Shown here: positions 23,392 to 32,343 of the stretch, one piece after another
Layout: each line of letters begins with the position of its first letter
How positions within the stretch are numbered: position 1 is the first letter of the stretch
Origin: Chloroflexi bacterium OHK40
GTDB lineage: Bacteria > Chloroflexota > Chloroflexia > Chloroflexales > Chloroflexaceae
Direction of reading: 5' to 3'
Assembly: GCA_004367505.1 (NCBI GenBank)
Contig: SFCB01000003.1
Location: 1-33,769 of the forward strand
Length of the DNA: 33,769 nucleotides
Position numbers and translations under genes: made by a program
Notes under the pieces: model-generated
Seen by the model: only the letters and a program-made list of their open reading frames with translations
Databases searched by the model: none
What the model was told of the DNA's origin: nothing

Positions 23392-24957
23392 CTAGGGCTG
23401 GAACACATACCCCTGCATCGTCACCCGGTAAGTCACCTGGCCTGCGGCGCGGCTTGACTCGACGGGGCTCCCGATATAGGCCGGCGGCCGGTTCATCGCT
23501 ACCTGGGTGCTGGGGCCATACTCGGCCCGGGCCCTGTCCGCAAAGGCGGCGAGGAACGCCTCGCGTATCGCGCTGGCGTCAGCACCCTCGGGCAGCGTCA
23601 CCTCCAGATCATAGGTGACGGCCGTGGAGGGCAGGGCGGGCGCGCTGGTGGGGGCTGGCGCAGCGTCGCCGGGCAGCAACTCAAGCAGCCTGGCAACATA
23701 GGGCTCGGCCCAGGCGGGACGCTCCAGGTAGATGAAGGCGCCCAGGCCCACGGCGGCAACCAGCGCGAGGGTGAAGACCGTGCGCACGAGCGCGCCAACA
23801 GCCGCTCGAAAACCACCTCGTCTGGCTGGCCGCACCCTGGGGGGAGCCGGCCGCGCAGGGCGCTGAGGCGTGGCGGGGGCCTGGGCCGGCGCGGCGGGTA
23901 TGGGCGCGGCGGGGGTCTGAGCCGGCGCGGTAACCACCGGCGCCGGAGCCGTGGCCACCTGCGCCGCCGGCTGCTCGATCCGCCGGGTCGCGGGCGCCAC
24001 ACGCACCTGCGCCGGCTGTGCGGCGCGCCCGGGGATCAGCGCGTCACGCAGCTCAGCGATGCTCGCGAAGCGGTCATCGGCCTTGAACTGCACCGCCCGG
24101 GCCAGCGCATCGCTCGTGCGCTGCGAGATCGACGGTACCAGGCTGCGCGCTGGCGGAAACTCGAAGGGCTTCTCCTCCGTCGGATCACGGCCCGTAAGCA
24201 AGTGGTGCAGCGTGGCCCCGAGGGCATACACATCGGACTGGGGCGTCGCGAGGCCCTGGTACTGTTCGGGCGGAGCGTAGCCCGGGGTCCCGATCTGGGT
24301 GCCGCGCTCGGTAGGCTTGAACAGCTTGGCGATCCCGAAGTCCACCACCTTCACTCCGCCATCGCGCTCGATCATCACGTTCGAGGGCTTCATATCGCGG
24401 TAGATCAGGTCGTTGGAGTGGAGGTGCTCCAGCACATCGCAGATCTGGTCCGCCCAGGCCAGCGCCCGTGCCTCATCCACCCGTCCTTCGCGCTCGATGA
24501 TCTGCTCGAGGTCCTCACCACGGACGAAATCCATCGTCAGGTAGTGGCGGCCTTCATCGGTGAAATGGCCGTACACGCGGGGGATCCGCGGGTGCTTCAA
24601 CCCCTGCAGCATCTCCGCCTCAGCGTTAAAGCGCTCGATGGCCTCAGCCAGTTCGCGCTTGTCGCTAAAGCGGTCGAGCATCATCTTGATCGCATAGATC
24701 TGGCCGGCATCGTCGATGCCCTCATAGACGGCGCCCTGGCCACCCTGCTTGACAACGCGCGTGATCCGGTAGTGCCGTCCGTCGCCGGTGGGCTCATTGT
24801 TGAGCACCACATCACGGCCGCAGTGCTGGCAGAACTTTGCGCGTGGCACATTGCTCCGCAGGCAGTGCGGGCAGAGTATCTGCTTCACCTCGGCCATAAC
24901 GCTCCAGGCAGGCGCGGCGACGACGGGCTGTCGCGCCGTACGGGCATGCTGAGCCAT
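23392..24957 (-). CDS. Zinc-ribbon Ser/Thr protein kinase with one TM segment
   Basis: A 521-residue Hanks-type kinase. A zinc ribbon (CPHC at 29-32, CQHC at 43-46) precedes the kinase domain (about 63-325): glycine loop KQGGQGAVYE, Lys91, catalytic loop YRDMKPSN with Asp188, DFG at 206-208, and GTPGYAPPEQ in the activation segment. A Pro/Ala-rich linker leads to a TM helix (about 395-415), and the last 80 residues (TYDLEVTLPEGADASAIREA onward) lie outside the cytoplasm. It presumably phosphorylates cytoplasmic proteins in response to an envelope signal. ATG 24957 has GGAGG seven bases upstream; Met21 is an alternative. It follows era and ends just before the tRNA promoter. Confidence 0.92.
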   Translation of the reverse strand: MAQHARTARQPVVAAPAWSVMAEVKQILCPHCLRSNVPRAKFCQHCGRDVVLNNEPTGDGRHYRITRVVKQGGQGAVYEGIDDAGQIYAIKMMLDRFSDKRELAEAIERFNAEAEMLQGLKHPRIPRVYGHFTDEGRHYLTMDFVRGEDLEQIIEREGRVDEARALAWADQICDVLEHLHSNDLIYRDMKPSNVMIERDGGVKVVDFGIAKLFKPTERGTQIGTPGYAPPEQYQGLATPQSDVYALGATLHHLLTGRDPTEEKPFEFPPARSLVPSISQRTSDALARAVQFKADDRFASIAELRDALIPGRAAQPAQVRVAPATRRIEQPAAQVATAPAPVVTAPAQTPAAPIPAAPAQAPATPQRPARPAPPRVRPARRGGFRAAVGALVRTVFTLALVAAVGLGAFIYLERPAWAEPYVARLLELLPGDAAPAPTSAPALPSTAVTYDLEVTLPEGADASAIREAFLAAFADRARAEYGPSTQVAMNRPPAYIGSPVESSRAAGQVTYRVTMQGYVFQP

Positions 24958-25062
24958 CAGGGCGCCTCCAGGGTAGCACAGCCGCCGTGTCCAGGCAACT
25001 CCTGAGCACTCGCTGCTGGTCGCTCACTGATACGCTCCCAGAAGCCTCTTTGTTGCGCGCCG

Positions 25063-26517
25063 CTACCGCCAGTCCTTTGCCCGGTAGCCGAGCCAGCCGA
25101 GCGAACTCGGGTCATCGCGCCAGTTCGGCCGCACTTTTACCCAGAGCTCCAGGAAGACCGGGCCGCCAAGCATGCGCTCGATCTCGAACCGGGCGGCGCT
25201 CCCGATCTTCTTCAGCATCGCGCCACCGGCGCCGATCAGGATCGCCTTCTGGCCCTCGCGCTCCACATTGATCGTCATGCGGATGTAGGTCGCCTGCTCG
25301 CGCTGCTCCCACTCCTCCACCTCCACGGCCACCGCGTGGGGTACCTCGTGCTGGGTATGCAGTAGTACCTTCTCGCGCACAAACTCGGCCGCCAGCTGCT
25401 GCTCGCTCTGGTCGGTCAACTGCTCCTCGGGGTAGAGTGCCGGACCCTCGGGCAGCCGCTCGATAATCGCCTCCAGCAGCGCGGCAAGCCCCAGGCCGCG
25501 CCGGGCCGAGATCGCCAGTTCCAGCTCCCAGGCGCCCAGGGCGCGGTACTCCTCCAGGTGGGTCTTCCCATCGCGTGGCCGGGCGTCCACCTTGTTGAGG
25601 ATGAGCAGCTTACGCCCCCGTGCCCGCTGCACCTGCGCGGCGATCTGCCGGTCCAGTTGGCTGGGCGGCTGGCTGATGTCGACCATAAAGCCGATGACGT
25701 CGGCGTTGGGCAGCGTCTTTTCCGCCAGGTCTACCATCAGGCGGCCCAGGGCGTGGTTCGGCTGGTGGATCCCTGGCGTGTCCACAAAGACGATCTGCGC
25801 GCCCGGGCGGCTGAGGATCCCCCGCAGCGGCACCCGCGTGGTCTGCGGTCGGGGTGAGACGATCGCTACCTTCTGGCCCAGCAGCGCGTTCAGCAACGTG
25901 CTCTTCCCCACATTTGGCTTACCAACCAGGGCCACAAAGCCGCTCCTGAGAACCTCGCTTGCCCCGGCCCGCTCATCGTGGGGAGGGGCGCCAGCTTCAC
26001 TGGTGCCGGGCGAGGGGGCGCTGTCCTGCTGCTCCGTCCCTGGCTCCTCATCCTTACCATCCCCCTGGCCCTCCATCGCAAACACCAGTGGCCCCTCCCC
26101 CTCCGCTGGCGCGTCGTCGAGCGCGACCATCAGCGGGGCGAGTCGCTCCAGGGCCTCCGGGGAGCGCAACTCGGCGGGCACGGCAAGCTCCACGCCTAGC
26201 ACCGTCTCATCGCCGTCGAGGTCGAGGATGGCCGTCTCCGTCAGTGGTACTACCCGGGCGGGCGGCTCATCGGCGATGCGGATAGTCAGGCGGCCCGTCT
26301 CCATATCGAGGCGCTCAAAGTCGCCGTCGAGGGCCAGTTCCAGTTGGGCGAGGGTCAGTTCATCATCCAGGTCAAGCCGCAGCCCGAAGATCCGGCCGGC
26401 GTCATCGAGCAGCAGCGCGGCCGGGTACTCCAGCGACTCTACCGCCTGTCCGGCCTCCAGCTCAGTGAAGTAGACGTAGATCGTGCCGGCCTCGGGGTCG
26501 TGTGAGAAGTTCAGCAT
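25063..26517 (-). CDS. era: GTPase Era with an N-terminal DUF2283-like extension
   Basis: A 484-residue protein. Residues about 192-484 are a standard-size Era: G1 GKPNVGKST, G3 DTPGIHQ, G4 NKVD, G5 SARRG, and a KH domain with IGAGGAMLKKIG. Era binds 16S rRNA and assists 30S assembly. Residues 1-190 are extra: two segments (about 1-60 and 75-125) resemble DUF2283 (TIYVYFTE and LLLDDAGRIFGLRL in the first; AILDLDGDETVLGVEL in the second), followed by an acidic, Pro/Glu-rich linker. The frame is continuous with no obvious internal start next to G1. The extension may bind another partner. Confidence 0.93.
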   Translation of the reverse strand: MLNFSHDPEAGTIYVYFTELEAGQAVESLEYPAALLLDDAGRIFGLRLDLDDELTLAQLELALDGDFERLDMETGRLTIRIADEPPARVVPLTETAILDLDGDETVLGVELAVPAELRSPEALERLAPLMVALDDAPAEGEGPLVFAMEGQGDGKDEEPGTEQQDSAPSPGTSEAGAPPHDERAGASEVLRSGFVALVGKPNVGKSTLLNALLGQKVAIVSPRPQTTRVPLRGILSRPGAQIVFVDTPGIHQPNHALGRLMVDLAEKTLPNADVIGFMVDISQPPSQLDRQIAAQVQRARGRKLLILNKVDARPRDGKTHLEEYRALGAWELELAISARRGLGLAALLEAIIERLPEGPALYPEEQLTDQSEQQLAAEFVREKVLLHTQHEVPHAVAVEVEEWEQREQATYIRMTINVEREGQKAILIGAGGAMLKKIGSAARFEIERMLGGPVFLELWVKVRPNWRDDPSSLGWLGYRAKDWR

Positions 26518-26628
26518 AGGGAGGGTCCATTGGTGCGCGGGCCGCAGCGCCGCTGAGGTGCGACGCCGTTCTGGGTGCTGGCCCGATTGGTTGATCGCCG
26601 GGGCCTCGCAGCCTGCGGCTGGTGACCA

Positions 26629-27798
26629 TCACGAGTGCCCTGGCGTACCGGCTGTTGGCGACGTCGAGGGAGCCAGGGCCGGCTCTGGCACAGGCTCACG
26701 GGGTGGTGGCGGGGGCGGCGGCGCGGCCTGGTCGGTCAGCTTGCGGTAGATAAAGCTGAGCAGGATGCGGATCACGGCGGCCACGGGGATCGAGATAAAG
26801 AGCCCGAAGGCGCCCAGCAGCGCACCGCCGGCGAGGATCGAGAAGATCACGACCGCAGGGTGGAGCCGTACCAGCGGGCCCATCACATTGGGAATGATGA
26901 AATGATCCTCGATCTGGCGCAGCACGAAGTAGATCACCCCGAGGAGCGCGGCGAGCCCCAGGTTCGAGAGCCCGAAGGGTACCTCCGGTTGGAACAGTGC
27001 GACGGCCATCGCGATCCCGGCCGCCGACCAGGGGCCAATGATCGGGATGATCTCCAGCGTGCCGGAGACGATCGCGATCACCAGCGCGTAGGGCACCCGC
27101 AGTATCGAGAGTGGGATGTAGAGCAGCACCGACATGATCACGATCAGCAGCAGCTGCCCGCGGATATAGGCGCTGAATACCCCATCGATCTGCCGGCCCA
27201 GGGCGCCGATCTCGGCGCGGTAGGGCGGCGGGATCAAGCTGGTTGCCCACTGCTTGAGTTGCCCGGCCTGCAAGAGCAGGTAGAACGTGATGATCAGGTA
27301 GACCAGCGCGAAGATCACCGTCTCCAGGGCCGAGAAAACCAGGCTCGGCACATTGCTGCCCGCCCGGCGGCCCAGGTCCGTCACGGCGCTGATCAACTGG
27401 GCCTCGAGCGGCGCCAGGTCAAAAACCACCCCGCCGAGCTCGATCTGCTCACGACCGCGGAAGAAGCTCTGGATGCTTCCGGCGATCGCGGGCGCCGTGG
27501 CCGCCAGGTCCCGCGCCTGCTGCGCGATTCGCGGCCAGAGGGCCGTGCCGAGCGCGTAGAGGATCAGAAAGGCGAGCACGTACAGCACCGCGATCCAGAG
27601 CGCCCGGCCCAGGCCGGTGCGCCGTTGCAGCCAGCCAACCAGCGGGTTGAAGAGATAGGCGGTGATAATCGCGGCGACGAAGGGAGCCAGCACGTGCTCC
27701 ACCGCCACCAGCAGCCAGATCGTCAGGGCGACCACCAGGGCCACGGCGATCAGCTTAAGTTGGGGCGAGAATCGGATCGGCGTCTGGTCGGCGGGCAT
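26629..27798 (-). CDS. AI-2E family transporter (PerM-like membrane protein)
   Basis: A 389-residue membrane protein of the AI-2E/PerM family with about eight TM helices, a soluble central part (about residues 85-150) and the family segment TLEIIPIIGPWSAAGIAMAV. The C-terminus (AAPPPPPPPREPVPEPALAP) is a cytoplasmic Pro-rich tail. Members export small molecules or ions; the substrate here is unknown. The start is taken as ATG 27798; TTG 27813 in the same frame is possible. It has its own probable promoter at 27858-27863. Confidence 0.88.
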   Translation of the reverse strand: MPADQTPIRFSPQLKLIAVALVVALTIWLLVAVEHVLAPFVAAIITAYLFNPLVGWLQRRTGLGRALWIAVLYVLAFLILYALGTALWPRIAQQARDLAATAPAIAGSIQSFFRGREQIELGGVVFDLAPLEAQLISAVTDLGRRAGSNVPSLVFSALETVIFALVYLIITFYLLLQAGQLKQWATSLIPPPYRAEIGALGRQIDGVFSAYIRGQLLLIVIMSVLLYIPLSILRVPYALVIAIVSGTLEIIPIIGPWSAAGIAMAVALFQPEVPFGLSNLGLAALLGVIYFVLRQIEDHFIIPNVMGPLVRLHPAVVIFSILAGGALLGAFGLFISIPVAAVIRILLSFIYRKLTDQAAPPPPPPPREPVPEPALAPSTSPTAGTPGHS

Positions 27799-27825
27799 AA
27801 CGTCATCCAGCAAACTGAGGCGACC

Positions 27826-27847
27826 GGGCCAGCGCCAGTGCTGGCCC
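27826..27847. repeat. Perfect 8-bp hairpin in the leader of the AI-2E gene
   Basis: GGGCCAGC and GCTGGCCC flank a six-base loop. The hairpin lies just downstream of the -10 element and upstream of the AI-2E start codon, so it would sit near the 5' end of that mRNA. It may stabilise the message or terminate read-through from minE; no T-run follows. Confidence 0.5.
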
Positions 27848-27857
27848 GCATCGCCCC

Positions 27858-27863
27858 ATTATA
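27858..27863 (-). promoter_or_regulatory. -10 element TATAAT upstream of the AI-2E gene
   Basis: A perfect TATAAT on the minus strand in the 120-base gap after minE. No good -35 element is found at normal spacing. Confidence 0.45.
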
Positions 27864-27933
27864 CCCTGGCCGACACAAGCCGGCATGCCGCAGCCACGTG
27901 GGGCCGCCCCGGAGCGGCAACCCGGCGCGCCAG

Positions 27934-28191
27934 CTACTCCCCGCCGCGCTTGAGCGGGATGTCGGCCTTGAGATAATCGGTGGCCTCACCGCGCAGCAGC
28001 GTCACCTCTATCTGCTCGGGATCCACGGCGGGCAGGTAGCGCGAGAGCACCTCGGCCATCTCGAGCTTCATCTGCTCCAGCATCTCCGGGGTGAGCTTGT
28101 AGCGGTCATCCACCAGCACCATCATCAGGCGCTGCTTGGCCACCTGGGCGCTCCGCTCACGGCGGCCGAAGAGATTGTCAAAGAAGCCCAC
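27934..28191 (-). CDS. minE: Cell division topological specificity factor MinE
   Basis: An 85-residue protein of normal MinE size. The N-terminal amphipathic part (GFFDNLFG) is the membrane and MinD-contact region, and QVAKQRLMMVLVDDR matches the conserved MinD-stimulating helix. MinE stimulates MinD ATPase and drives pole-to-pole oscillation that places the septum at mid-cell. It starts at GTG 28191 with AAGGA seven bases upstream, 45 bases after minD. Confidence 0.95.
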   Translation of the reverse strand: MGFFDNLFGRRERSAQVAKQRLMMVLVDDRYKLTPEMLEQMKLEMAEVLSRYLPAVDPEQIEVTLLRGEATDYLKADIPLKRGGE

Positions 28192-28236
28192 GGCGGGTCC
28201 TTTCCATAGTCGGGGCCTCGGGCTCGCGGTATGCGC

Positions 28237-29037
28237 TCAGGAGCGGCGGCGCCCGAACATCCCGAAGAGCCGCTCCAGCATGCCCTGGCCATCCTGGAGG
28301 GCCGGAAAGGGCACCTCCTCGCCGTTGAGGCGCCGGGCGATATGCACGAAGGCCCGGCCCGCCTGCGACTGCGGATCGTACACCGCCGCCTCGCCGCGGT
28401 TCGTCGCCGTGACGATTGTCTCGTCATCAGGCACGATCCCGATCAGCGTAATCGCGAGCAAGTCGAGCACATCGTCAACAGAGAGCATCTCGCCACGGCT
28501 CACCAGGCGGGGCTTGAGCCGGTTGACGATCAGGCTGGGGGGCCCCTTCTCGGCCGCTTCCACCAGGCCCACGATCCGGTCGGCGTCGCGCACCGCGGAG
28601 ACCTCAGGCGTGGTCACGATGATCACCTGGTCGGCGCCGGCGATGGCATTGCGGAACCCTCCCTCGATCCCGGCCGGGCTATCGACGAGCACATAGTCAA
28701 ATTCGGCGCGCAACTGGTTCGTCAACTCGGTCATCTGCTCAGGGCTCACCGCGTCCTTGTCGCGGGTCTGAGCGGCGGGCAGCAGGCAGAGTTCGGGCAG
28801 GCGCTTATCCTTGATCAGCGCCTGGCGCAGGCGAGCCCGGCCCTCCACCACGTCGACCAGATCGTAGACGATGCGGTTCTCAAGGCCCATCACCACGTCG
28901 AGGTTGCGCAGGCCGATGTCGGCATCGACGACAGCGACGCGCCCGCCCTGCATGGCGAGAGCGGTGCCGAGGTTGGCGGTCGTGGTCGTCTTCCCCACGC
29001 CGCCCTTGCCGGAGGTGATGGTGATTACACGCCCCAT
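28237..29037 (-). CDS. minD: Septum site-determining ATPase MinD
   Basis: A 266-residue P-loop ATPase with the deviant Walker A motif GKGGVGKTTTTANLG, the VVDADIGLRNLD switch and a C-terminal amphipathic end (MLERLFGMFGRRRS) that targets the membrane. It recruits MinC. Start ATG 29037 has GGAG seven bases upstream; an in-frame ATG at 29136 would add 33 unrelated residues and overlap minC. Confidence 0.96.
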   Translation of the reverse strand: MGRVITITSGKGGVGKTTTTANLGTALAMQGGRVAVVDADIGLRNLDVVMGLENRIVYDLVDVVEGRARLRQALIKDKRLPELCLLPAAQTRDKDAVSPEQMTELTNQLRAEFDYVLVDSPAGIEGGFRNAIAGADQVIIVTTPEVSAVRDADRIVGLVEAAEKGPPSLIVNRLKPRLVSRGEMLSVDDVLDLLAITLIGIVPDDETIVTATNRGEAAVYDPQSQAGRAFVHIARRLNGEEVPFPALQDGQGMLERLFGMFGRRRS

Positions 29038-29092
29038 TGCTGCTCCGTTAGGGGCGCGGCGCGCCGCGCCCGCACCAGGTGGTAGCCGTGCT

Positions 29093-29770
29093 TCAGCGCT
29101 TGAAGGACTCCCACGGCTCCACGACGATCTGGCCATCCTCGATCCGCGCCACCTCGGGGGTGTGCGGGCCGCCCCTGGGTGTGGTGGCGATCTGATCCGC
29201 GATGCGCAGCTGGGTGGGCCGCAGCTCCAGCGCGCACACTAGCGCCTCGGCATTGCCGAGGGCGCCGGCGTGAACGAGCCCCCGCAGCCGCCCCCACACG
29301 ACCACGCTCCCGCCGGCAATCAGCTCACCGCCCGGGTTCACATCGCCGATGAGCGTCAGGTGGCCGCTGTGGCGCAGCACCTGCCCGGAGCGCACCGTCC
29401 GCGCTACGAGCAGTGCATCGCCCTCATGGGCTGGCGGCTCGCGGCTCTCACGGGCGGGCTCGGGGTAACGCGGCAGGGGCCGCGCCGTGAGCCCCGCAGC
29501 CCGCGCGGCGCTGCGGCTCTCGCGGGCACTGGCGCTCAGCGCCTCCGCCTCCACGCCGTGCTTCTGCATCAGGGTAAGCATCTCAGCCAGTTGCTCTTCG
29601 CTCATCGCCCGCTCGCCGACCTCCAGCGTCAGCCGCGCGCCGCTAAAGAAGCCGCGGTTCCGGGTGAGCTGCTCCTGGAGTTGGGCGATCAACCTGTCCC
29701 AGTCGGCTGTGTCGTCCAGCCGCATCCGCAGGCCGTCGCGCCCGCCTTTGATGCTGATCAGGTCGCTCAT
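29093..29770 (-). CDS. minC: Septum site-determining protein MinC
   Basis: A 225-residue FtsZ-assembly inhibitor. The N-terminal domain spans about 1-100. The C-terminal beta-helix (about 118-225) has RSGQVLRHSGHLTLIGDVNPG, GELIAGGSVVVWGRLRGLVHAG and ALVCALELRPTQLRIAD, the conserved MinC_C pattern that binds MinD. A short Arg/Glu/Pro-rich linker joins them. It is the first gene of minC-minD-minE and has its own extended -10 promoter 39 bases upstream of its start. Confidence 0.95.
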   Translation of the reverse strand: MSDLISIKGGRDGLRMRLDDTADWDRLIAQLQEQLTRNRGFFSGARLTLEVGERAMSEEQLAEMLTLMQKHGVEAEALSASARESRSAARAAGLTARPLPRYPEPARESREPPAHEGDALLVARTVRSGQVLRHSGHLTLIGDVNPGGELIAGGSVVVWGRLRGLVHAGALGNAEALVCALELRPTQLRIADQIATTPRGGPHTPEVARIEDGQIVVEPWESFKR

Positions 29771-29808
29771 GAACCCCTGTGTCTGGTTTGAACGCGGGAT
29801 GTTCGCGA

Positions 29809-29817
29809 ATTATAGCA
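29809..29817 (-). promoter_or_regulatory. Extended -10 promoter TGCTATAAT before minC
   Basis: On the minus strand TGC followed by a perfect TATAAT gives an extended -10 promoter with a leader of about 30 bases. The -35 region is poor, as is usual for this class. It lies in the 227-base gap between mrdA and minC, so the min genes can be transcribed apart from the mre genes. Confidence 0.6.
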
Positions 29818-29997
29818 CACGCATGTCTCGTGCGGCAGACACAGGCTGCCCCGGCCGCGCATCCGCCAGCGGGTCCGCTCTCATACGCCCGTGGGCCGCT
29901 CCCACCGGGGTCGTGCCCGCTACCCGGTGTGCGCGAAGATCGTTACGTCACATCCTTCGCCTGGCTGGTCCGGCGCATCACCCGTTGCCCGTCCGCG

Positions 29998-32343
29998 TTA
30001 CGGCTGGCCGACCACCGGCGGGGCCGGCTCAGGGTCGGCCGGCATGGCCGGGCAGGTGCGGGGCGCCTCGGCCGGAGGAGCCACCTTGAAGTGGGCCTGC
30101 ATGATCTGCGTCACCGCTGGCACGGCCATCGTCGAAGAGCCATCGCCAAGGTCGCCCACGCCCTCGATCAGCACTGCCACCACGATCTCGGGGTTCTCGT
30201 AGGGCGCAAAACCGACGAACCAGGCGTGGCTCTGGCGCACCAGGCGGCCCTGCGGATTGGTGAGCAGCGGGCCGAACTCCGCTGTGCCGGTCTTCCCGGC
30301 GATGCGCAGGCCCGAACACTCCTCGCGCGCCGCGACGTTCAGGCCGTTCGTGACCGAGTCGCGCATGCCCTGGCGGATCGCCTGCATGTAGGCTGGTTCC
30401 ACCGGGGCCTGGCCCAGGAGCTCAGGGGCTACCGCGCGCACCAGGGTGCCACTCCCGTCCACAATCGCCTGGACGACGTGGGGCCGGTAGATCCGCCCGT
30501 CCGTCGCCACACCGCCCGTCGCCACCGCCAGCTGGAGCGGCGTGACCAGCATATCGCCCTGGCCGATCGCGGTATTGTAGGTGTCGCCGGTGGTCCACAC
30601 TTCGCGCTTGGTCTGGGCCTTCCAGGCCTGTGTCGGCACCAGCCCTGGTGCCTCGCCAGCAAGGTCAACGCCGGTGGGCCGGCCAAGATGGAACCACTCC
30701 AGCCCCTCCACCAGGCCGTCGATATCCAGCCCTCGCACCCGCAGCGCTCGCTCGTCCAGGTTGGTTGCCTGGTCGTTGCCGCCGGCAACCGAGGCGAAGA
30801 AGACGTTCGACGAGAGGCGCAGGGCGTCCACTACCGTTAGCTCACCGTTGTCACGGTTGCGCACCGAGTTGGGCAACTCGAAGGGGGCGCCGTTGCGCTC
30901 GATCAGCTGTAGGAAGCCAGGGTCGCGCAGCCTGGTCTCCACGCCGATTACGCCCTGCTGCAAGGCAGCGGCGCCAACGAACTGCTTGAGGGTGGAGCCG
31001 GGGGGGTACTGGCCGGCAATCGCCCGGTTCGTCAGTGGGGCGAGCCGCAGCAACTCCGCGAGGGCTGCCGGATCGCCGGGGGCGAGCAGGGCCTGCAACT
31101 CGGCCGAGCGGGTTGGGTCAACCCAGACATTATTGTCATAGGCGGGAAGGGAGACCATCGCGAGTACGCGGCCATCGCGGGGATCGATCGCCACGGCAGC
31201 GCCGGCAACGATCGGGTCATAGTTGCGCTTGTAGTCCTCGGTGGCGGCCAGGCGGCGCCGCTCGCCCTCGGCGATCCAGCGGCGCAGGATACGCTCAACC
31301 TCAGCCTGGAAGGCGGTGTCGATCGTCAGCACCAGGTTGTGGCCGTTCTCTACGGGGCGGATGCGTTCTGGCGCGCTCACCGGGCGCTGGAGCGCGTCCA
31401 CCAGCAGCGTCTCGATGCCCATGCGGCCGCGCAGCTCGGCCTCGTAAGCCGCCTCCAGCCCGTCCTTGCCGATCCGGTCGTCCACCTGGTAGGGCGGCAG
31501 GCCGATGCTGGCCGGGTCGATCTGTTTAGGAATGAGGCCGCAGCTACCGGCGTGGCCGATCACGTCGGCCAGGCTGGTGAGCCAGGAGCTAGCCGGGTTC
31601 TCGGCCACCAGTTCGCACTCCGAGATGCGCCCGACGTAGCCGAGCAGGTGCGAGAGCGAGGGGATGGCCGCGCTCTGGGGGTAGCGGCGGCGGAAGCCCT
31701 CCACAACCTGTACGCCCGGCAGGTAGGTGCTATTCTCGCTGATCGCCAGGGCGAGGCTCTGGCTGATATCCTCCTTCACCACCACACTCTGGTACCCGCG
31801 CACGATCTCGCGGTCAATCAGCGCTTCGATCGGGCTCTGGAGGGTCAGTACATCGCTGTGGGTTCTGGTAAGCTGGAGCGCCCGCAGCGTCGCGGCAGGT
31901 GGCACCGTAACGCTGATCGCGGGGCTGGCCGTGATCTGGGCGGGGGCGCCGAGGTTGCGCAGGGCGGTGCGCAGGGCCGGGCGCTCCTGGAGCGCGGCGG
32001 TGGGGGAGATCGTTAGCGTGCTGGTGAGGCCGACCACCTGGCCGATGCGGGCCAGCACCTCGGCGCGGCGCCAGGGCTCGCCGCTGCGGCTGGGCAGGCG
32101 GCCGGGCACAACGGCCAGGTTGTAGATCGGCACGCTCTCGGCGAGCAGCGTCCAGCCGTCGGCGGCGTAGATCTCGCCACGACGCGGCGGCACGGTGATC
32201 GAGCGCCGGGTTGTCACATCAATGTCGTTGCCGAAGCGCCGGCTATCGCTGTCCACGAGCTGCAGCTGGTAGAGCCGGCCCACCAGGACGGCGACGACGA
32301 TCAGCAGCAGGGCGCGCAGGGCAATCAGGCGTGGCATAGGCAT
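29998..32343 (-). CDS. mrdA: Penicillin-binding protein 2 (elongation transpeptidase)
   Basis: A 781-residue class B PBP. An N-terminal TM (about 5-22) is followed by a dimerisation domain that starts RRSITVPPRRGEIYAADGW. The transpeptidase domain has the nucleophile Ser450 in GSTLK (Lys453), then the SSN triad (LRLSSNVFF) and Lys684 in GKTGTAEF, the three active-site motifs. It crosslinks peptidoglycan during elongation with MreC and MreD. It is longer than typical PBP2 (about 600-700); the extra lies mainly between the N-terminal motif and the transpeptidase part. The 166-base gap to mreD contains adjacent palindromes (32414-32436). Confidence 0.95.
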   Translation of the reverse strand: MPMPRLIALRALLLIVVAVLVGRLYQLQLVDSDSRRFGNDIDVTTRRSITVPPRRGEIYAADGWTLLAESVPIYNLAVVPGRLPSRSGEPWRRAEVLARIGQVVGLTSTLTISPTAALQERPALRTALRNLGAPAQITASPAISVTVPPAATLRALQLTRTHSDVLTLQSPIEALIDREIVRGYQSVVVKEDISQSLALAISENSTYLPGVQVVEGFRRRYPQSAAIPSLSHLLGYVGRISECELVAENPASSWLTSLADVIGHAGSCGLIPKQIDPASIGLPPYQVDDRIGKDGLEAAYEAELRGRMGIETLLVDALQRPVSAPERIRPVENGHNLVLTIDTAFQAEVERILRRWIAEGERRRLAATEDYKRNYDPIVAGAAVAIDPRDGRVLAMVSLPAYDNNVWVDPTRSAELQALLAPGDPAALAELLRLAPLTNRAIAGQYPPGSTLKQFVGAAALQQGVIGVETRLRDPGFLQLIERNGAPFELPNSVRNRDNGELTVVDALRLSSNVFFASVAGGNDQATNLDERALRVRGLDIDGLVEGLEWFHLGRPTGVDLAGEAPGLVPTQAWKAQTKREVWTTGDTYNTAIGQGDMLVTPLQLAVATGGVATDGRIYRPHVVQAIVDGSGTLVRAVAPELLGQAPVEPAYMQAIRQGMRDSVTNGLNVAAREECSGLRIAGKTGTAEFGPLLTNPQGRLVRQSHAWFVGFAPYENPEIVVAVLIEGVGDLGDGSSTMAVPAVTQIMQAHFKVAPPAEAPRTCPAMPADPEPAPPVVGQP

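Follow-up and report, generated by a model that had tools for sequence, protein, structure and literature searches.

Era is a near-universal GTPase of ribosome assembly, well understood and often essential. In Chloroflexi bacterium OHK40 its gene lies in the stretch of DNA analyzed here (33,769 nucleotides, contig SFCB01000003.1, positions 1 to 33,769), which we call the window, and its reading frame starts far upstream of the GTPase itself. What is this N-terminal extension, is it made as part of the protein, how widely is it shared, and what might it do for an Era?

Parts of the window Era and their sequence relatives

Read from its sequence, the open reading frame is an Era with whole G and KH domains, and the N-terminal extension comprises two DUF2283-type repeats joined to Era by an acidic tether (Table 1). 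Residues 191 to 478 score 351.3 bits against NF000908, “GTPase Era” (cut-off, 237), and residues 193 to 461 score 256.7 bits against TIGR00436 (cut-off, 116.25), both above the thresholds; GKPNVGKST, DTPG, and NKVD are what we take to be the G-domain motifs of Era. No other open reading frame in the genome (6.93 Mb in 301 contigs) exceeds the Era cut-off, and its other GTPases score more weakly. The first-pass annotation had described a core of the size of a whole Era behind an extension with two DUF2283-like segments and an acidic linker. The core is borne out by the two NCBI equivalog models and the KH_2 match, and the extension by Pfam matches in orthologues, by hhalign, and by the net charge of -12 on the linker.

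Table 1. Features of the window era locus and of the related loci discussed in the text
Feature	Location	Strand	Evidence or remark
era gene, 484 aa, ATG start	25063..26517	-	Tandem DUF2283-like module, acidic linker, Era G domain, KH domain
DUF2283-like repeat 1, residues 1-55	26353..26517	-	hhalign to repeat 2 and to stand-alone DUF2283; Pfam model blind here
DUF2283-like repeat 2, residues 62-128	26134..26334	-	Pfam DUF2283, 18.0 bits; above cut-off in seven orthologues; hhalign
Acidic linker, residues 129-191	25945..26133	-	Net charge -12; 26-110 residues in 31 orthologues
Era G domain, about residues 192-366 (end estimated)	25420..25944	-	GKPNVGKST, DTPG, NKVD motifs
KH_2 domain, residues 391-467	25117..25347	-	Pfam KH_2, 63.2 bits (cut-off, 22)
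AI-2E family transporter, upstream neighbor	26629..27813	-	Pfam, 193.5 bits; homologue beside era in L111 (G118)
Protein kinase, downstream neighbor	23392..24957	-	Pfam Pkinase, 153.6 bits; homologue beside era in L111 (G118)
Era gene of G207	L207:1620-2495	+	No repeats
GNAT acetyltransferase ORF of G205	L106:2528-3181	+	Between transporter-like gene and era
Stand-alone DUF2283 behind DUF4258	L082, L084, L089, L099, L195		Over the DUF4258 cut-off; weaker in L091, L094, L097
Genomes with no Era detected, examples	G158, G394, G437, G126, G341

In the window protein Pfam recognizes only the second repeat (DUF2283, residues 77 to 111, 18.0 bits, E 0.0032), below the cut-off of 23 bits, and a DUF2283 family search of the genome at E <= 0.1 missed the window era. 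It is the orthologues that place the extension in this family and thus lead us to read it as a tandem DUF2283-type pair: 28 of 29 aligned members of the order match DUF2283 in Pfam at E <= 1 (best, 6.5e-9), and seven Era genes found among 150 genomes of the class pass the Pfam cut-off (G034, G102, G118, G229, G230, G252, and G253). The alignment, A1, covers residues 1 to 135 of the 29 members and omits three near-duplicates (L018, L021, and L044), two members whose starts were missed by the pattern (L010 and L048), and one with an assembly gap (L042). Its invariant columns are D7, F17, D38, L77, A96, D99, and G108, and the conserved columns of the extension agree with DUF2283.

The profile search of the N-terminal region that the annotation had proposed showed each repeat to resemble DUF2283 above all 100 column shuffles. 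In hhalign, where each E-value refers to a single comparison, repeat 1 against repeat 2 gave 95%, E 3.2e-8, and a score of 39.4 (best of 100 column shuffles, 13.3). Against a profile of 17 stand-alone DUF2283 proteins, repeat 1 gave 90%, E 1.9e-6, and a score of 33.3 (best shuffle, 17.9), and repeat 2 gave 97%, E 1.7e-10, and a score of 52.6 (best shuffle, 19.5). The two repeats rule out a mere low-complexity leader.

Searches by sequence turned up no solved structure that is a convincing relative (best E-values, 0.83, 0.63, and none). The structure model of the extension, with a pLDDT of 56, is too weak to be of use, and we discarded its Foldseek list as noise. A stand-alone DUF2283 model (pLDDT, 76) had no Foldseek matches at E <= 0.001, and its best matches in VIA-align, two chains at Z 4.8 of which one belongs to an EF-Tu/CdiA/CdiI complex and the other to a GatB-YtpR model, are leads only. 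A “PF10049” labelled calcineurin-like in a part of PMC6733907 does not fit the DUF2283 family and was set aside.

The extension is translated and constrained, with a weaker constraint than that on the core, since its dN/dS (Nei-Gojobori) is 0.04 to 0.24 in all 14 pairs compared. The linker gave 0.09 to 0.39 where defined (it was undefined in two pairs) and the core 0 to 0.10, so that the extension evolves faster than the core; these are rough estimates, with pairs that are partly non-independent and several dS values of >1.5. The last ATG, GTG, or TTG ahead of the core in the window is M148. Together, these start codons and the dN/dS of the extension led us to reject an internal start near residue 190, the case that the first-pass annotation had named as its refutation. 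An annotation artefact, in which translation begins internally and the extension is never made, could draw on the absence, by eye, of a clear Shine-Dalgarno sequence ahead of the ATG; but all 14 pairs show the extension to be under purifying selection, and the window has no such start codon between M148 and the core, which makes the artefact extremely improbable.

The era gene belongs to a same-strand cluster (23392 to 32343, minus strand) with genes for a penicillin-binding transpeptidase, MinC, a MinD-type ATPase, MinE, and the AI-2E transporter, and with the kinase gene downstream. Homologues of five of these, all but the transpeptidase, adjoin era in L111 (G118). L104 and L105 are further loci for this cluster, and at this place the transporter gene and the module are jointly missing in G211 and G233.

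Distribution, gain, and loss of the module

A search of 82 genomes of the order found a match to A1 in 68 and a match to Era at E <= 1e-30 in 72. The core N terminus is assembled in 69 Era genes, and for 64 of them the module lies on the same contig and strand; 63 of these modules are in frame, the exception being a run of N in G217. As for the other five genes, the contig of G249 stops there, and the Era genes of G211, G233, G205, and G207, all members of the window's own family, are without repeats. Three further genomes (G204, G213, and G239) have the module with no core N terminus listed. The module is kept across all four families of the order, which is probably the Chloroflexales.

Across 399 Chloroflexota genomes, with six candidates scored per genome, Era was found in 129, of which 46 are inside the order and 83 outside by kinship assignment; 46 of 49 genomes of the order were recovered. 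None of the 83 outside Era genes, a few of which are fragments, carries the module. Eighty of them have frames of at most 403 residues, and the shortest whole Era with a module that we saw has 444. By eye, the repeats are absent from the N-terminal parts of the long Era frames of G412, G426, and G375 and from the plain Era of G443. Matches to A1 outside the order are weak (best E, 2.7e-7), and the frames that hold them, apart from that of G197 (499), have 232 residues or fewer; an Era-type GTPase motif was absent by pattern match from the longer or odder of these frames (G467, G197, G379, and G474). These scans found no wider spread of the fusion in the phylum. The first-pass annotation had asked about its conservation in Chloroflexota: the fusion is conserved throughout one order, and the phylum as a whole is too wide a frame for it. 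The viral contigs searched held no relative of the whole Era protein and one stand-alone DUF2283.

The order forms one clade (100/99) in a tree of Era cores with 49 rows, which does not include G207. Primitive absence of the module in G211, G233, and G205 was rejected (p-AU 6.5e-5) when the module rows, comprising 32 rows with a module and two cut rows (L042 and L107), were held as one clade; the G211, G233, and G205 rows are long branches and call for caution in inferring loss. From the tree and this p-AU value, the simplest account has the module arriving once, ahead of the diversification of the order, and disappearing at least once within the window's family, and we infer from these core sequences that the module was gained once and lost in a few lineages. 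One and two losses are indistinguishable (49/83 support). The era core of G211 and G233 directly follows a MinE-like ORF, and in G118 and the window the AI-2E transporter gene and the module stand between the two; a single deletion may have removed both transporter gene and module in G211 and G233. In G205 the transporter-like gene is separated from era by an ORF for a GNAT acetyltransferase. Since cells without a module exist, the module would seem not to be indispensable in every background.

The scan also touched the presence of Era itself. In the same class outside the order, again by kinship assignment, one of 76 genomes has an Era at E <= 1e-30. With every candidate scored, 14 of these genomes (G443 aside) all stayed below the NF000908 cut-off, and no match in these 14 passes position 207 of 291, so that the KH part is uncovered; many of the matches are adjacent pairs, and paired GTPase matches below the cut-off fit Der. 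The genomes checked in this way measure 2.8 to 6.1 Mb, and genomes without a match may hold a very divergent Era. A review confines Era loss to extremely genome-reduced groups (PMC10582724); the finding of Era in just 129 of 399 Chloroflexota genomes is contrary to that view.

Charge and possible roles of the module

Residues 1 to 191 of the window protein have a net charge of -33 and one lysine, and the core has +3. In 31 of 31 proteins the repeat domain is acidic (-14 to -24) and the linker carries -3 to -22; the six neighboring window ORFs have total charges of -10 to +2, and the 17 stand-alone DUF2283 proteins are acidic at -5 to -12. We tentatively propose, as a possibility drawn from these sequences, that the acidic, nearly lysine-free module is a cis regulator of the Era core or of its RNA binding. 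The module would fold back onto the G domain, the RNA-binding side of Era, or both and would compete with non-cognate RNA until displaced by the proper 16S rRNA 3′ end, and it could thereby tune the rate of GTP hydrolysis and the timing with which Era binds and leaves the assembling small subunit.

Comparison of cores with and without the module bears on where it might act. The mean charge of the G domain is +4.2 with the module (32 rows), -1.0 without it (3 rows), and -2.4 in the outgroup (11 rows), and that of the KH domain is -0.9, -4.0, and +2.2, respectively, a contrast that turns on three module-less rows representing perhaps one loss. Cores with the module thus have a KH domain that is less positive than that of the outgroup, which argues against docking on KH and slightly lowers our confidence in a cis regulator; for cis action, the G domain would be favored over the KH face. 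Rows with the module often have basic residues at positions 298 and 448, where none of the three module-less rows has them; acidic position 468 is also changed in these three rows, and R at 448 occurs in some outgroup rows that have no module. The repeat-less Era of G207 begins with a 64-residue stretch, mostly D and E, of net charge -34 and without a Pfam match, as if acidity were the part that matters. The Era proteins of G211 and G233 have no acidic N terminus.

Acidity alone also suits a protein-binding adaptor, which counts against the cis reading. In this close rival, which we hold possible though doubtful, the DUF2283 pair would act in trans, recruiting an RNase, an assembly factor, or a DUF4258-like RelE-fold protein to the pre-30S particle. 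Several stand-alone DUF2283 genes of these bacteria, and one on a viral contig, begin only a few bases from where an upstream DUF4258 gene ends. Of 10 scanned upstream ORFs, which had been chosen from 18 loci for their likeness to DUF4258, 8 match that family at E <= 0.1, and five of these exceed its cut-off. DUF4258 is listed among toxins of the RelE/ParE superfamily, with activity unknown, in parts of a 2025 review (PMC11980606). From this adjacency and membership, DUF2283 may be a protein-binding, antitoxin-like domain. However, the same parts of the review give an antitoxin-toxin gene order and DUF4258-MqsA fusions and do not contain “2283”, and HicB is the partner of a DUF4258 protein in a further paper (PMC4963859). 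The DUF2283-DUF4258 pairing is, moreover, seen in stand-alone relatives only: none of six window ORFs scanned around era (23392 to 32343) matches DUF4258, and no DUF4258 gene adjoins the window era, which is flanked by the transporter and kinase genes. The stand-alone DUF2283-DUF4258 loci could themselves be toxin-antitoxin-like pairs.

The module could also be a passive extension: picked up by chance, it would aid solubility or expression without serving any specific function, and it would be slowly disappearing, in keeping with the missing repeats of the four Era proteins in the window's family, the 83 Era genes outside the order in which no module was found, and the faster evolution of the extension. 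We consider this unlikely, as all four families of the order keep the module, its dN/dS is well under 1, and its conserved columns agree with DUF2283.

To return to a cis-acting module, a broader form of the idea would make DUF2283 domains acidic RNA mimics or antitoxin-like domains, with a tandem pair domesticated at the base of the order as a brake or specificity filter for Era and with the related DUF4479 of YtpR serving similarly on other RNA-binding proteins; we regard this as a long shot. In YtpR, DUF4479 precedes an RNA-binding domain. DUF2283 matches DUF4479 (PF14794) in hhalign with 66%, E 5.5e-5, and a score of 28.4 (best of 100 shuffles, 16.2), with four of seven fetched sequences in the alignment. 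By fold the match is weak (9a77_B, residues 1 to 60, Z 4.8). The YtpR-type genes concerned include L201, L203, L204, and L205. DUF4479 looks like a distant relative of DUF2283.

Comparison with known systems

The extended Era joins two known families in a new domain architecture that spans one order and is kept by selection. Our literature search returned no mention of DUF2283 and no paper joining “GTPase Era” with “Chloroflexus”, and in the papers that it covered the fusion architecture was not found. Fusion to a GTPase so well understood and often essential gives an assayable handle on DUF2283, for which the same-family relatives with an Era lacking the repeats are natural deletion controls; a module kept by selection yet lost in a few lineages offers a way to learn its role. 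The suggestion that the fusion may give a clue to the function of DUF2283 holds to this extent, through the acidity, the DUF4258 neighborhood of stand-alone relatives, and the natural losses, but the clue is indirect.

Like other bacterial Era proteins (NF000908/TIGR00436), the window protein has a G domain and a KH domain, is encoded by a single-copy gene, and passes both equivalog cut-offs; it differs in about 190 added N-terminal residues, which are seen in 0 of 83 Era genes elsewhere in the phylum. The parts of two papers that we draw on report a comparable logic for the acidic C-terminal tails of Hfq, likewise acidic appendages on an RNA-binding protein (PMC5606850, PMC6561178). The Hfq tail is disordered, whereas the appendage of Era is likely a folded domain pair, and we claim no homology between them. 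YtpR carries an N-terminal DUF4479 that DUF2283 resembles by profile and weakly by fold, although the Era repeats themselves show no match to DUF4479. With the small DUF2283 proteins (PF10049), both Era repeats share sequence profile and acidity, but the window copy scores under the Pfam cut-off, and while those proteins are short and several adjoin DUF4258, Era has two tandem copies fused to a GTPase.
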